Assembly (NCBI GenBank): GCA_015956445.1
Contig: WIUZ02000006.1
Location: 930,001-994,000 of the forward strand
Direction: 5' to 3'
From: Thelephora terrestris
Taxonomy: Eukaryota > Basidiomycota > Agaricomycetes > Thelephorales > Thelephoraceae
Length of the DNA: 64,000 bases
Every line of letters begins with the position of its first letter. Position 1 is the stretch's first letter. Below are positions 2,216-59,439 of this stretch, piece by piece. A program made the translations under genes and the position numbers. A model generated the notes under the pieces. The model was given only the letters and a program-made list of their open reading frames with translations, did not search any database and was not told where the DNA came from.

Positions 2216-5200
2216 CTAGACATGGTACCAATGCTGCTCCCCGAGTAACAACACGACCGAGAGCTCCTCGCCGTTATCCAGAGGTCCCACCAGCTTCGGC
2301 CCCAGCAGCCCTCTTCGCTCGATCACTCTGTGGCGTTGCAAATACTGTATGACTTCCTCCAGTTCTTGACGATCGTATACATTCTGCATCCTCCACCGAA
2401 GTTCGGCCTGCCATGGAGTCAGTTATTTCGGCCACTCTCCTGCTTTCTACCCACACACACCTGGGTAACCGCCGGCCTGGAGACGATCACTCCCATGGTC
2501 GCCCTCAATCCCGCCTCCCATATCTCAGGTACCTGAGAACCGTTGATATCGGTCCATCTCCTGGGCTTTACCATAACCGGGGGCTTAGGTGCGATGAGAC
2601 TCCATGTCTGGAGGTAAGCTGACGACACCAGTACGACGGTCAAGTATCCCGTCCAAAAGAAAAGGGAGGTGCGATGTGAGGTCACTTTGTTAATCGCACT
2701 GTACACGTCCACGAGACCCGGTTGCTGTTGGCAACCCTACGAACATAGACGGAGTCAAATTCATCACGGACTATGGATGTTTCCAGGGCTTACCGGAATA
2801 TCTTTCTTCTCTATTCCGTGAGGACCTGCATCGTTCAGCGACGAAACAATCCCCAGAACACAAGCCTTCTCCGCCTCATCCAGGTAATCAGTGAGCCTCT
2901 CGATCTCGCCATCAAGGCAAGCTTGACAGTCCACCAAACCTGGCGAGTTCATGGCACAACACGCGGTTCTTCTATCTCTGGTAAATCCATGTTCCGCAAC
3001 GGGAGAAGTGGCAGGGGATGGTGATGGAGGTTCCCCTGATGCTTCCATGTGGATGGAAGACCACGACAGACCGTGACTTCGGATCTGGAGACCCGTCTCG
3101 AGTTCGACGTCGTCTGGGTTGGATTTGAACAAGCGCACCCCAAGTGGAACGAAATTCACTGACCAGCTTTCTTACTGTTGTACTCGACCGAAGTTCGCGA
3201 CTCCTTCGCTTGGGTAGTGTCAATCCTGAAGTCGATCTTCCCGCCTCTCGGTTCAAAGTTAATTGGCTGCATCGAGAGTGACGCCTACCTTGTTTTCTGA
3301 TACAAGTTCAATGAGCGCCGCCATGTCTCCATCAGAGGCGAGTAATGGCCACTCCCTCCACTCGATCTCTTCCTCGTCCTCTTCGATCCATAGCTCCTCC
3401 AGAGAAGACGCGTCACGGAAGGTTTCACGAGGCATTGGCCCCTTGAGTAGTGCTTGATTTCTAAGACGGAGCCTAAGCATCAGAATGACCTTAAAAGAGG
3501 TCGGGATACGTACTGGTCAGATATCTTGAGAGGGCGGCCAGGTTTTGGCTTCTTCGGATCTCGGACGGTCTTCGAGAACACACTCCTCTCGAGCAAGCTC
3601 TCCGCCACCGAAGATACCGCGTTGTCGCCGAACCTTTGTAATAATTGGGTCGCCGTCTCGACGCTATATCTTTCATACGGGGTGCCAACAACGATCTGGC
3701 CGCCAGCTTAGTAGGGTTCACACTTGCGAGGCAACCTATCGTGACGTACCTTGACAGCGGCTTCCGTGACATACATCTCGTCGGATTCGTACAGGGCTTC
3801 CACGGACGGGTTTATCTCATCCGCGAGCATGGATTTTGCCAGAAGCTGTTTCTCTCGCTTGTCCTCGGTCACGGCGTTCCACATGAAATCCCAGGCCGAG
3901 GTCACCGACTGGCTCTCCTTGATATCCAAAAGCAATAACTGTTCGGCACTCGACGGGAGGGCTAGGCTCTCACTCCCGATTCCCCTGCGCGATGCGATGA
4001 ATGAATTACACTAGGCGGAAAAGCTTGAAAGAACTCACAGGGATGATTTTTCGATGTGAGTACGGAGAAATGTCAAATGGGCGACAAGGTCAAAATCCGT
4101 GACACTCTTGGGATTTGGATCAGGTAGCTGAGGTGTTCCCCGATGACGCATCCAAAGGTTATGCCAAGCGTCCTCCAACCGCTGAAGGTACGTCTTCAAC
4201 GGTCGAGAGTCCTTCGTTAGGTTATCGATTCTCTGTCGTACGGAGTTCTGGTTCAGTACAGGAAACACCTGAGTGATTGCGCCCCAATCCATTCGTTGCC
4301 CAGACCGACAACGCGCTTTGATGATGACGGACGCATCTTTCGCGAGTTCGTCAAATTCAGGGTTCCATTTAAATCTATTCCGCCTTTTCTTTGACTCTTC
4401 TGCATGTGGACTTTCAGGAAGAGTCTTTAATGAGCACTAGCGCGTTTGGCTGACCTGACTTATCCTTGCGTCTCCGCACAGGCGCTTCCGAAAGGCTCTG
4501 TATCTTATTCTGCTCGCTCAAGAGTTGAGCTATGCTCTTCTCCGTCGCAGAACCGGAGGGAAAGGGAACAGCAGCGGGCCCTTTCGGCCGAGGTCGATTC
4601 GCAAGGTGCAGGGATTGATTAGTGGCCTCCTCTTGAATGGCCGTAACGATTTTCTTCTCCCACTGCTTCTCGTCCACCACCGACGGAGCTTTGAGAAACT
4701 CGGTCCGGACGCGCTGAACCCGTGGCGGAAGAGGTTTTCCAACCAACGCAGGATGTGAATCCGCTAAGAGTTGATCCCAGAGTTTGATTCGTTTGTCTTT
4801 CCCCCTGGCAGCTTTCTGGGCGACCAAGGCGCGCTTTTCGCTTTGGGACTTTTCCTCTTTCCTCCTCCTCCTCTGAAGCTGCTGAGCCCGTCGATCGAGA
4901 GCCGTAGCGTAAAACCGCTTGATGACGCTTTGGGGAGCAAGGGTGACCCAGGAGAGATGAGCGAGTCGTTTCTTAGTTTCTTCGTCATCTGAGAGAGGCG
5001 GATCGTCGAGGGAATGGTTGAGGAAACTCTCCTGATGAGAGGAAATATAGTAGGTCGCAAGCCATCCAGCATCGCGTCGGAGCGAGTTTCTGATGACAAG
5101 GTTGGGTTGATCCTCTGGCGGAACCTCCCCATTATGGACCTCCTCTACAGAACTCGTACCCAGGCTGACTTCCTTCAGGTTTTTCCAAAAGTCCTCACCC

Positions 5201-8200: not shown

Positions 8201-8924
8201 ATTCTTCGAATCGTAGCCGGTCTTGTTGCTCAGATCGATCGTACTTACGCCCTTTTCCCTAGCGCGTGCGATGAGTTGCAAGACCGTGTAGACCATCGGA
8301 GATAACGTTGAAGACTGCAGGGACGTCAACAATGCACACGAGAACAAGTCGCTCCGGACATACTTTCGCATGAGGTCCAGCGAGGGTGACCCTCAAGACT
8401 TCACTATCTACGGCAACCCTAAGACGTTCTCCATACGACTGTTTGAGTTGACTGAACGGCTGAGATTTGCTGTTTGCGACATGCTCGAGAGAGGCAACCT
8501 GGTCAGCCTCGGCGGTCTCCCGGGCCTTACCGGAACCCTTCTTACTTCCACGTGGTGGGGGAGCGATATAGACCTCGGAATGGTCACCAGGAGGCAAAAG
8601 TCCGACATATACACTCGGCTCCTGAAGAATTATCGGCCACGCGAACGCAAAAAACGGGTCATCGACGCCCTGATCACAGGTGAATTTGTAGAAGGCGTCG
8701 ATAAGAGTCTCAAGGCGGGAAATGTCACATCCTAAGATTCCCAAAGGAGTTGAGTAAGACCAGAGGTATCATCGGTTGATCAAAAAATAAAAGGGGCAAC
8801 AGCGAGAGTCGAACCCGCACGGCCTGCACATGATGGGGGGAATGAGGAGGGCGGAGGCGAATGGCTCACCCAGGTCTCCTTCAAACGACAATTCGCGAAC
8901 GATGTATTGCACCAAGTCGTCCAT
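2216..8924 (-). CDS. TFC3: TFIIIC B-block-binding subunit, Tfc3/tau138-like
   Basis: Largest TFIIIC subunit, which in the family binds the B box of tRNA genes and recruits TFIIIB and RNA polymerase III. The start at 8922-8924 (MDDLVQYIVRELSFEGDL) splices over a 138-nt intron (8732-8869) to GCDISRLETLIDAFYKFTC. A B-block winged helix lies at about 8220-8300 (TVLQLIARAREKGVSTIDLS). A second winged helix is near 7420-7490. Three AT-hook cores follow (KRGRPRK about 6960, RKRGRPPKRK about 6790, KKRGRPPKN about 6720). A further winged-helix region is at 6100-6300 (NEFYRVVQEFGGIAVVNVK), and the extended C-terminal part at 4035-4292 contains MDWGAITQVFPVLNQNSVRQ. The last exon ends EQHWYHV-stop at 2216. 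Many short introns. The protein is about 2,000 residues, longer than the yeast protein. Family assignment is firm; internal exon borders are approximate. Confidence 0.85.
8732..8869 (-). other. Unusually long first intron of the TFC3-like gene
   Basis: 138-nt intron with donor GTGAGC (8864-8869) and acceptor CTTAG (8732-8736), joining ...GDL to GCDISRL with a split glycine codon. Most introns in the window are 47-70 nt, so this one is about twice the usual length. The extra sequence carries the B-box/T-run element described separately. Confidence 0.8.
8782..8829 (-). promoter_or_regulatory. tRNA 3'-half-like B box with T-run terminator inside intron
   Basis: On the minus strand, GGTTCGACTCT (8805-8815) matches the pol III B box GGTTCGANTC. 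It sits in a proper T-arm: GCGGG and CTCGC pair (four Watson-Crick pairs plus one G-T) around the loop TTCGACT. A 7-nt acceptor-like strand TGTTGCC follows, then CCC and a T-run (TTTTATTTTTT, 8782-8792) like a pol III terminator. I could find no matching 5' acceptor strand (GGCAACA), D-arm or good A box upstream, so this is not a complete tRNA gene. It may be a tRNA fossil, part of a SINE, or an 'extra TFIIIC' site. Confidence 0.6.
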
Positions 8925-9403
8925 TGGCTGCAGTCAGGACGAATAAATGGTGATGTGAACGGAGCAGCGGGAAAATCCTGGTTCCTCGGGGAACCGACCA
9001 AGCACTCTTCGTGTGTAGGGACGTTACAAGACAGCTATAGAGACTATATATATGCCGTCAGGAGAGAAGCGACGTTCCCGGAGCGTGCCCTGGATTTTGA
9101 GGTCCAAGTTCGTCGAACGCTCAGTTCAGGAATGATTTCCGTATTTGATTATCGGAGAGAGGACAGAGAAGTGGTAAACGACGGTGTGCGTGATTGACGA
9201 GGCCTACCGCGGACTACCGCGGACCATAGAGTCTACGTCTTTTGTAGAATAAAATAGGGATTTCTAAACTAGTTTGTGGTAGAAACCGTTCTACCGAAAA
9301 AATACCAAACTACCGCCAAAGTCTATCTCTATCCATAAAGCCTCCGGGAAAGGGTCAAAGAGGTAACGGTCCAAACCAGAAGGAACAGAAAGAACGGGCC
9401 ATT
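8925..9403. other. Intergenic region between PRELI gene end and TFC3 start
   Basis: No coding frame of note. It should hold the TFC3-like promoter and the 3' flank of the PRELI gene. The part at 9200-9320 contains repeated CTACCG words and a small hairpin (see findings). Confidence 0.6.
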
Positions 9404-18442: not shown

Positions 18443-21400
18443 TCACGAGCCCGCTCGAGTTCGAAGGACGATTTGGACCTCGTCTCTCCTCAACTCGGAG
18501 AATCCCATAACCTCGAGGATCCCTCGCTCCCAATCTTCGTCCGTGGTCGTTCCGAAAGTGAGGCCTTTGATCCTCTCCCACTCGGGTCCTTGTAGGGCCA
18601 ACAATCTCCCAGCCTGAACTAGACGCCTCCAAGGGCCTTCCACCAGCCTAGAAACACCCCTCCCGCCACCTCCGCTCAAAGATGCTCTAGAAGTCTCCAG
18701 CCAGACCTCACACTCCGTGGCGACAGCCCTTCCCTCCTTCAGTCCAATCATCCCTATCCCCCTCTGCAGAACCATCTTCTCCAAAATGACGTTGGAAATC
18801 CTCCCGGCGATCTTCCGATAGAGATCCGCCAACACCCTCGTCGACAGACTAGACTGGAAATACGCGAGATACGAGGATAAAAGTGAGACTGGTGACATGA
18901 GGGTAGATGGTATCTCGATTTCGTAGTTGCCGCGAAGGTGAGATTCGACAGCGGGATCTTCGTGGATCCCCGATGAATGACTGCATTTCGATATTTCGTC
19001 CGGGTTTCACGATGATTGTTCACGGAGCGAAAAAAAAATAGGTGAAAAGAGGGCATCAAACGGACATGAATTAGCGTTCATCCGGCATTGAGACACGCTC
19101 CGTCCGGAACTTTGAACACACCTGAAGAAATGGCCCTTCAACTCAATCTCAACCTCCCCACACACGTGCTGCAAGACCATATCCTCCGCCCGCTCCGCCA
19201 AAGCGTCGTAATCTTCGATCAATTTGTCAAAGATCGAACCCTTGTCAGATTTTGCGCCGCGTGCAGGTGGTGGAGGGATGGGCATCAATTTGTCCTCATC
19301 AGCTCTTACTCTGAGATTGGAATTGTTGATGATATCCTGCCACAACTCCAAGAAGAACTGCCGGGGGCGCGATGAGAAATGAACACCGATGGACTGAATG
19401 CTTGACTTACCACTTCGTCACCCCAGCCTTGCATAGCTTTCACAACGTACTTGGTACTAACGAATGCCTTGCACAGCTTCTGGGCACCAGCGACACCCGT
19501 AGTCTCTCTCTTCACGCTATTTTCCCCTCCAGATCGGGAAGGGTCCCGACTAATGGCACCCGGCACGACACGCACAAACGATGCAGACACTGACTCGAAC
19601 CCATCCAAAAAAGACGATATCCTCAACCGATACAGGTCCAAAATCGGAAGCTGGACCGTAGTCAAAAAGTCCAAGCGTTGACCAACGTCAGGCAAGGCAG
19701 AATAACGATCTATATTTGCGATAGACCTTTGTTAGGGCAAAATCAAATATTGTAAATATTTGTCTGACCTGTGACTTGTTCGAATAAAGCTTTGATTCTT
19801 CTGGCAGAATTTGTAGGTCTCAAGTCATGTTCCTGACCCGATTCGTCCCCTTGATCGTCGACCATTCGCCAAGGATCACCTGAGGTCAGTGAAGTATGGT
19901 ACTGATCCAGGGCGACTAGAGAAGGCCAGGTGACCAAAAAAAAAAAAGCAACAATAGAGATAAGGAAGGTTATATGCAAAAGGGGGGACGGTCATCAGAA
20001 AATCTTGAGAGCAAAAACTTTCTATCCAGAGGGAGGTCTCGTACATTGTTTCTCGCCGTGGAGCCATGCGGTGAACCAGCCGGATTTTCCCAAGACGGTA
20101 TCGCTAACACCTTTCCATTCACTCTTTCCCTGAGTGATTTCAGCGGTAGTCCCAGAAAGGTCAAAGCCCTCCTCCCGGAGGGCTGCATCAAAGGAGATGG
20201 ATTGATATATCGTGTGAGCAAGAACCGGTGGGTGAGGGAGCAGTGATGGCATAGATCGTTTTAGTTTTCGAGTTACCACGGGCAGAAGCAGGAGCACGAA
20301 TTCTCTCTACGCCACTTTGTCATTCTCGATCCGCTGATCAGAACGTTCAGAAAACAAACATACCCATGCGTTGATGTTTTTGTGTTTCGTCGAATTCAAA
20401 AGTCGCTGGACTACAGATTCGATGAACGGGCGTTGGTCGTGGACGACGTTCAGAATATGGGTAAAGTACCACTCGGGCTAAGTGATTGATCATCAACATC
20501 CCTCAGAAGGTCGGGCAGCGAGGGGGCAAACCTTGTCCAGCTGATTTGTGGGTCGTTGGCCCTCAAAATGAAACTTGAATCTGAGAGCGATAGGATGAAC
20601 CAGGGCTTGTATAGAATATAGTCCCTCGGCTCTCGGTACGCCTAACTGCTCGCCTCTAGGCATTCGGCGCATTAATGAAGAGCAAGTCTACCGGGGAGTC
20701 GACTCACAGGTCCTGTAGTTTGAGTAGATCGAGAAAGATGCATTCAAATGCTTTCCTGTCCTCGACGCGCGCACCCGGGTAGTCCACCTTCACTGGCCAA
20801 CCAAGCTTTTCAGACACGGTCGTCATCGACCTAGGCAATACGTTCACAAGTAGACACACGCCCGAGGTATGCCAAATACTCACATAAATAAACCGGTCTT
20901 GATGTCTGCCCACGTGCGATCGCGTACGTTCTGCAGGAACAGAACGAGATGCAACGGTTGTTGACCCAACGAGTGATCAACAACAGCGCATTTTTCGACC
21001 AGCTGAGAAACAAATGTCTGCAAGAGACCATAATCGGACACGGATGAATGCGAAGAGAAGTTCTGTGCTTGTCGGATGGCGGCTTCGCTGTATCCAAAAG
21101 GCGTGAGCTCAGGAAGGCTCGAACCGTCGAGCAGTCCGTACCTGAGATAAAGGGCACGGTGTATCACCTGAACGTAGCTCTTTACGGATTCGAGCTCTTT
21201 GAGATTCCTTTGAAGGGTCTCAAGTTCCTCCAAGAGCGTAGGTTGTCGGTCCGGACCAGACATGGAAGACACGAGTTCGTTAGACAGATACGATAGCTCA
21301 TCCGAAAGCGAATCTCTGATGAGCCCCAATTCCTGGACTGTCTCGAGGTACCCATTAGCATCGCGTAGAGTTTGCGCAGTGATAGAGTCGACTAGGTCTT

Positions 21401-58424: not shown

Positions 58425-59357
58425 GGAGGTTGCCAGGGAGGAGGGGGGGAATAAGTGAAGGAGGGAACGTGTGGGGGATTAGGGAGGGGTATAAATTTAG
58501 TCTTGGGTCTGGTTATATGTGGAAGGGTGAGGGACGTGATGTCACGGATTAGAAGTCACTCGATCCACGTCCGTCATGGTGACGGATGGTGTTGCTGAAG
58601 CCATCGGGTAACTAGTATCCAATAATCCACCAGTCCCATTCAACTTCGGATTTCCATTTTTTATCTACAACATCCAAAAACGTAACACAAAACCCGCAAA
58701 ACCTATAGGAGATAGAAGGGAAGTGGGACGACGCGCTGCGGGCCCGACGTGGAAAACGCCACTACGTGCTGGGAACGGCTAGACATTCATCTTGGACAAC
58801 ATCTGCGCACGAGACCAATCTGCGGATAAGTATAGCCCGGTCACAGCCCTCGGATTTTCTGCGCAATGCGGATGAGCGCCATTCGGGCTGCCTACCACTG
58901 CCTTCTACGCACTTCCAAACTTGAAGACGACACCTGTGTATGGCTACAAACGTTTGGTCCCTGCCCTAAGCGCCTGATCACCTTAGCCCACTGACAGCAC
59001 GCGAGATAACGTCCGGCGCCCCCATCAAACCCCAATGGGATTCTTAGTCAACGTGGTGATCAGGAGGAAGTCCATTGAAAACATGAGGCGAGCTCCAAGT
59101 CGCCACGTCACTCCGCCGCCAACTGTGTCTCTTCATGGACGTCCCGATGTACGATCCAGTCCACCCCAGGTGATCGTTGTGCTGCTAAGGATTGTCAACC
59201 CGAAGCTAAAAAGTGACGTTTTCCGTGCATCATACGTGAGTTTCCGAGATAAATGACTCTTCCTCTTCCCATCCAACAACGGCACCAAAGTCCTGGAGCC
59301 TGGTCTCCCGAAAAGCAACGCTAATCTCAAGCATGTTGCACGAGGATGTAGAAAAAG
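58425..59357. other. Upstream region of the tricalbin gene
   Basis: About 0.9 kb, no coding exon recognised. A TATA-like GGTATAAATTTAG (58487-58499) lies about 65 bp upstream of the tricalbin ATG but reads TATAAAT on the opposite strand, so its role is unclear. Confidence 0.5.
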
Positions 59358-59439
59358 AGGTCCTACCCGGGTTCGAACCGGGGTTACGGGAATTTTGACT
59401 TGTCAGAATCCCGTGTGATAACCACTACACTATAGAACC
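59358..59439 (-). tRNA. tRNA-Gln (anticodon CUG) with a ~10-nt intron
   Basis: Full cloverleaf on the minus strand. Acceptor GGTTCTA pairs with TAGGACC (one T-G); discriminator T. The D-arm TAGTGTAGTGGTTATCACA carries a good A box and closely resembles yeast tRNA-Gln. Anticodon stem CGGGA/TCCCG; loop TTCTGA..T holds CTG. The extra CAAGTCAAAA after the base 3' of the anticodon is in the canonical intron site (37/38). T-arm CCCGG TTCGAAC CCGGG contains the B box GGTTCGAACC. A T-run (CTTTTTC, 59351-59357) follows as terminator. Confidence 0.93.

Follow-up and report, generated by a model that had tools for sequence, protein, structure and literature searches.

In yeast, TFC6 is reportedly autoregulated through the site ETC6, a finding credited to Kleinschmidt in 2011. 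ETC6 is a TFIIIC site carried by the TFC6 promoter, and GWTCRANNC is given as the B-box consensus (passages of PMC4228148). The human TFIIIC structure has been described as showing high-affinity anchoring to the B box, and changing C56 or G57 has been reported to reduce the affinity of yeast TFIIIC 370-fold or 56-fold, respectively (passages of PMC11811891). In mammals, a MIR element in intron 1 of Polr3e lowers the expression of its host gene, and this effect has been proposed as a possible feedback (passages of PMC5358760); it is also supported by passages of PMC10896340. When the Polr3e MIR was placed in a reporter, expression was cut in the antisense orientation only, the sense orientation having no measurable effect, and sense units with Pol II accumulation are described at other loci (passages of PMC5358760). 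Additionally, old tRNA genes gave rise to ZOD1 and YGR033C, two loci of yeast at which Pol III factors have been found; weak Pol III transcription and occupancy data have been reported for ZOD1, which is an ancient gene for tRNA-Ile (passages of PMC5356446).

Yeast TFC3 carries a single intron (passages of PMC514540). An alternative 3′ splice site of this intron accounts for 27% of the spliced products, which are degraded by NMD; its use is unchanged by starvation, rapamycin or LiCl, and both spliced forms decrease upon heat shock (passages of PMC3983031). Among the matches listed from the open-licence literature, which do not prove absence, none was found to describe a TFC3 intron that carries a B box.

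Here, we analysed a window of 64,000 nucleotides from Thelephora terrestris (contig WIUZ02000006.1, positions 930,001 to 994,000), in which an initial annotation had placed a B box with a T-arm and a T-run inside intron 1 of a TFIIIC gene. All positions refer to this window.

The TFC3/GTF3C1-like gene and its first intron

Domain matches support the assignment of the host as a TFC3/GTF3C1-like gene on the minus strand, the product of which would be a B-block-binding TFIIIC subunit, in agreement with the initial annotation. The predicted product matches Pfam family PF04182 (B-block_TFIIIC) with an E-value of 3.3e-10 and 40.3 bits (cut-off 22), while a match to eWH_GTF3C1, at 23.9 bits, falls under the curated cut-off of 30, and yeast tau138 gives a weak match (E 0.005). 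A PDB search with the N-terminal 175 amino acids of the product returned no match, and one with the 662-aa ORF returned a single weak and unrelated match (E 0.89). One scan of viral contigs for relatives of the host protein gave ten pattern matches, none of which was a relative. Of six ORFs from what appears to be the C-terminal part of the gene, three match DUF6581, a family of unknown function, one of them just under the cut-off; these ORFs lie at 3260-4436 on the minus strand, and the domain may be a part of TFC3 in such fungi. Upstream, TFC3 is adjoined on the same strand by a PRELI-family gene (Pfam PF04707; 9404-10095, minus).

The features of the 5′ end of the gene are the following:

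8912..8923, minus: best A-box-like match, TGGACGACTTGG, overlapping the start codon
8870..8924, minus: coding part of exon 1, 55 nt from the ATG at 8924, MDDLVQYIVRELSFEGDL and the first base of the codon that follows
8732..8869, minus: intron 1, 138 nt, GTGAGC...CTTAG (GT..AG), with exons 1 and 2 joined in frame
8824..8826, minus: alternative 3′ splice site, CAG of GTGCAG, which would shorten the intron to 46 nt and bring in an early stop
8802..8818, minus: T-arm-like hairpin GCGGG-TTCGACT-CTCGC, five pairs, one of them G-U
8805..8815, minus: B box GGTTCGACTCT, no mismatches to GGTTCGANTCY
8795..8801, minus: acceptor-like strand TGTTGCC, 7 nt, followed by CC and then by the T-run
8782..8792, minus: T-run TTTTATTTTTT, Pol III terminator-like

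The coordinates given to intron 1 in the initial annotation, 8869..8732 on the minus strand, are exact, and when the intron is spliced out, MDDLVQYIVRELSFEGDL-G continues in frame to CDISRLETLIDAFYKF. Its description as over-long is fair, given 138 nt against 49 and 49 nt for introns 2 and 3 of our partial gene model, the two introns compared. YAG occurs twice in intron 1, once ending at intron position 46 and once at 138. The first delimits a nested, complete-looking intron of 46 nt (GTGAGC...GTGCAG, 8824-8869, minus), the use of which would shift the TFC3 frame and lead to a stop 13 codons past the split glycine codon. This YAG ends right before the GCCGT leading into the T-arm, that is, five bases ahead of it.

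The intron 1 element and the search for a tRNA gene

The components that had been described, a lone B box in a T-arm, a 7-nt strand and a T-run, are all present on the minus strand of intron 1; thus, the element is in the sense orientation with respect to its host. Two features of a type II Pol III unit, the B box and the T-run terminator, are present. The T-arm and the acceptor strand presumably resemble those of yeast serine tRNA. The B box is the only perfect GGTTCGANTCY site in the window and keeps both C56 and G57. It also fits the B-box consensus GWTCRANNC, which occurs 51 times in the window, this site included, so that a match to it predicts little. The T-run TTTTATTTTTT is the window's sole exact instance of T4AT6 or T6AT4; two long T tracts starting at 19948 and 19040 (minus, within 19030-19948) equal or exceed it in T-richness.

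No credible A box above chance was found near the element. Of 5000 random places, 22% scored as high as the best match, TGGACGACTTGG, or higher, on a crude scale that is itself weak, because the genuine A box of the tRNA-Arg gene described below scores no higher, with the same value of 7. The distance from TGGACGACTTGG to the B box is 108 nt from start to start, beyond the 31-93 nt described for yeast tRNA genes (passages of PMC5356446), and its position is, by eye, unsuited to an acceptor stem.

ARAGORN with default settings and Rfam at the gathering score found a single tRNA gene in the window, a tRNA-Arg(TCT) of 83 nt at 59357-59439 on the minus strand, which by eye has a short intron beside the anticodon. 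Within 8401-9300, ARAGORN found nothing either when introns of up to 1000 nt were allowed or in mitochondrial mode. With a lowered threshold and without introns, it gave three candidates, none of them on the intron 1 T-arm; with introns, at 60% or 30% of the threshold, one of five candidates used this T-arm. This relaxed candidate is a tRNA-Met(cat) at 8879..8793, with a 16-nt intron, 71 bases once the intron is removed and a score of 86.7; it forms five of the seven acceptor pairs, counting one G-U, and survives to 85% of the threshold. As a control, we kept the T-arm and shuffled the upstream sequence (minus strand, from 9100 down to the T-arm) 300 times, and 230 of the shuffles reached 85% of the threshold or more (150 equal, 80 better). 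Since most of the shuffles equal or outdo the real sequence, the 5′ half is no better than chance, and a hidden intron-containing tRNA-Met(cat) gene at 8879..8793 was rejected as a chance construct. The statement of the initial annotation that no tRNA 5′ half is present is thus borne out by the default ARAGORN and Rfam searches as well as by this control.

Between 400 nt upstream and 300 nt downstream of the T-loop, no partner pairs with all seven bases of the acceptor-like strand TGTTGCC, while six of the seven, counting G-U, can be paired at 15 places. A permuted tRNA gene was likewise considered, and neither a complete 7-nt partner nor an A-box match was present downstream.

In a further control, the 48-nt 3′ end of the tRNA-Arg gene, submitted to Rfam by itself, scored 14.9 bits as tRNA (E 0.34) along 35 nt. 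The matching 48 nt of the element scored 6.6 bits as a tmRNA T-arm (E 0.16) along 17 nt, in an output that omits two overlapping clan matches with lower scores, one of which may be tRNA. The E-values of the two are alike, and it is the extent of the match, 35 against 17 nt, that differs. The tRNA likeness that can be demonstrated thus goes no further than the T-arm, the T-run and their spacing. Further Rfam matches to AniS (E 6.3, well under the gathering score), snoU82P (E 9.6) and, on the T-run, XIST_A_REPEAT (E 0.97) were taken as chance.

The claim that the B box lies inside a folded T-arm held for short fragments and failed for longer ones. Fragments of 25 nt (-6.2 kcal/mol, z -0.59) and 46 nt (z -0.68) adopt the hairpin when folded in isolation, but it is absent from the fold of a 91-nt stretch and from that of the whole intron (z +0.62), for which 147 of 200 shuffles folded as well or better. 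Folding therefore lends little support to the element, no tested length being notably more stable than shuffled sequences.

The chance expectation was obtained from 5000 dinucleotide-preserving shuffles of the window. Perfect GGTTCGANTCY sites occurred at a mean of 0.46 per shuffled window, against the one observed, so the B box alone is unsurprising; T-arms of five base pairs occurred at a mean of 1.41, against five in the window. A T-arm followed by TTTT is found twice in the window, in the intron 1 element and in the genuine tRNA-Arg gene, and at least one such combination arose in 165 of the 5000 shuffles. When the full B-box letters were required as well, the window held one combination and at least one was seen in 8/5000 shuffles, a figure that overstates the case, since this strict criterion was fixed after the site had been seen. 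In an initial set of 300 shuffles, the looser criterion gave a count of 7, and a somewhat wider form of the strict one gave 2.

Remnant, coincidence or regulatory site

We tentatively favour a remnant resembling a tRNA 3′ end as the origin of the element, as the likeliest single reading though at less than even odds. The element would be a decayed tRNA-derived sequence that now lies passively within the long intron 1, to be removed by splicing; both its descent from a tRNA and its lack of a present regulatory role are what we infer. The order and spacing of its parts (a 5-bp T-arm, 7 nt, 2 nt and a T-run) copy the 3′ end of a tRNA gene, the combination of T-arm and TTTT is shared in the window with the genuine tRNA-Arg gene alone, and the strict combination is rare among shuffles. 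A recognisable 5′ half is lacking under default ARAGORN settings and under Rfam, the relaxed ARAGORN candidate is no better than shuffles, and the excess length of intron 1 over introns 2 and 3 fits added sequence. The sense orientation, together with the lack of an A box above chance, argues against an active interfering Pol III unit. However, the demonstrable likeness stops at the 17-nt T-arm, the spacing and the T-run, Rfam recognises 35 nt of the tRNA-Arg 3′ end as tRNA but reports 17 nt of the element as a tmRNA T-arm, and the looser combination does arise by chance. Duplications of at least 6 nt flanking the element were absent from the sequence compared, some 80 nt on one side and 110 nt on the other, and the window holds no other copy of at least 24 nt. 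Within this scope, a SINE or repeat origin seems improbable. The fossil that the initial annotation had offered as an alternative is at least as likely as the feedback site that it was set against. A bacterial or viral tRNA was also discarded as the source, the exact 22-mer being absent from viral and prokaryote contigs, which is a narrow exact test in non-fungal collections and likewise lends the remnant no support. Somewhat less probable, in our judgement, is pure coincidence, that is, an ordinary long intron in which a B-box-like hairpin and a T-run have met by chance. The shuffle means for the B box and for the 5-bp T-arm, and the 165 shuffles with a T-arm and TTTT, are consistent with such a meeting, as are a hairpin not notably more stable than shuffled sequence, an Rfam match limited to the T-arm and an upstream region that fits a tRNA no better than shuffles do; the full-letter combination speaks against it, with the reservation already made on that criterion.

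Both the remnant and the coincidence rank above a functional site, these rankings being judgements rather than computed values. A lone TFIIIC site at which the complex, bound in the first intron of the gene that encodes its B-box-binding subunit, lowered Pol II passage or splicing and so exerted negative feedback seems unlikely. The feedback proposed in the initial annotation is plausible by the precedents of ETC6 at TFC6 and of the MIR in intron 1 of Polr3e, and the B box, with its C56 and G57 and its fit to GWTCRANNC, is of the kind that it would use; the origin of ZOD1 and YGR033C is a further point in its favour (passages of PMC5356446). The proposal is weakened by the abundance of GWTCRANNC in the window, by an A-box search that gave no match above chance and by the orientation, as the Polr3e reporter responded to the antisense element only and the intron 1 element and its host are both on the minus strand, unlike the antisense arrangement of a Polr3e-MIR-like interfering unit. 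The sense orientation weakens feedback without excluding it, because sense units with Pol II accumulation are known elsewhere (passages of PMC5358760). Occupancy of the element by TFIIIC with no effect on the gene is possible, the bases needed by the tau-B module being present. Moreover, a remnant and a function are compatible, because ZOD1 and YGR033C themselves derive from tRNA genes (passages of PMC5356446).

Two readings that involve the GTGCAG site appear far less probable still. According to one, alternative 3′ splicing at intron position 46, and not TFIIIC, would be the working feature of the intron, yielding a frameshifted message that would be a target of NMD. The 46-nt version is close in length to introns 2 and 3, GTGCAG is the only YAG of intron 1 besides the main one, and yeast TFC3 offers the precedent of a non-productive alternative 3′ splice site, although the yeast site lies downstream of the main site and the one described here upstream (passages of PMC3983031); the T-arm, too, would be left unexplained. 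According to the other, which is just as improbable, TFC3 would be under direct feedback by TFIIIC: the lone sense B box with its terminator, perhaps together with the weak A-box-like sequence at the start codon, would recruit TFIIIC to its own gene and shift splicing towards the adjacent non-productive site.

Comparison with known Pol III-type elements

If the element were a remnant or a coincidence, it would be an ordinary tRNA-like scrap in an intron. If it were functional, ETC6 at TFC6 and the MIR of Polr3e would be joined by a further case in which an embedded element of Pol III type lets the Pol III machinery control a gene of its own, here the gene for the very subunit that reads B boxes.

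The element shares with ZOD1 the possibility of an old tRNA sequence, which in ZOD1 keeps the Pol III machinery bound; in contrast to the tRNA-Ile ancestry and the occupancy of ZOD1, the descent of the intron 1 element is suggested by its T-arm and T-run. It resembles the Polr3e MIR in being of Pol III type and in occupying intron 1 of a gene that encodes part of the Pol III machinery. In the MIR, however, 25-26 bp separate the A box from the B box, and the MIR is antisense to its host, conserved among mammals and occupied by Pol III, whereas the element described here is a lone B box in the sense orientation, known from its sequence. In being a lone B-box-type site at the gene for a TFIIIC subunit, it resembles ETC6, whose host gene encodes a subunit that helps B-box binding. 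ETC6 differs in being a promoter site that has been studied in vivo, while the T. terrestris site, read from the genome sequence, lies in an intron of the gene for another subunit.
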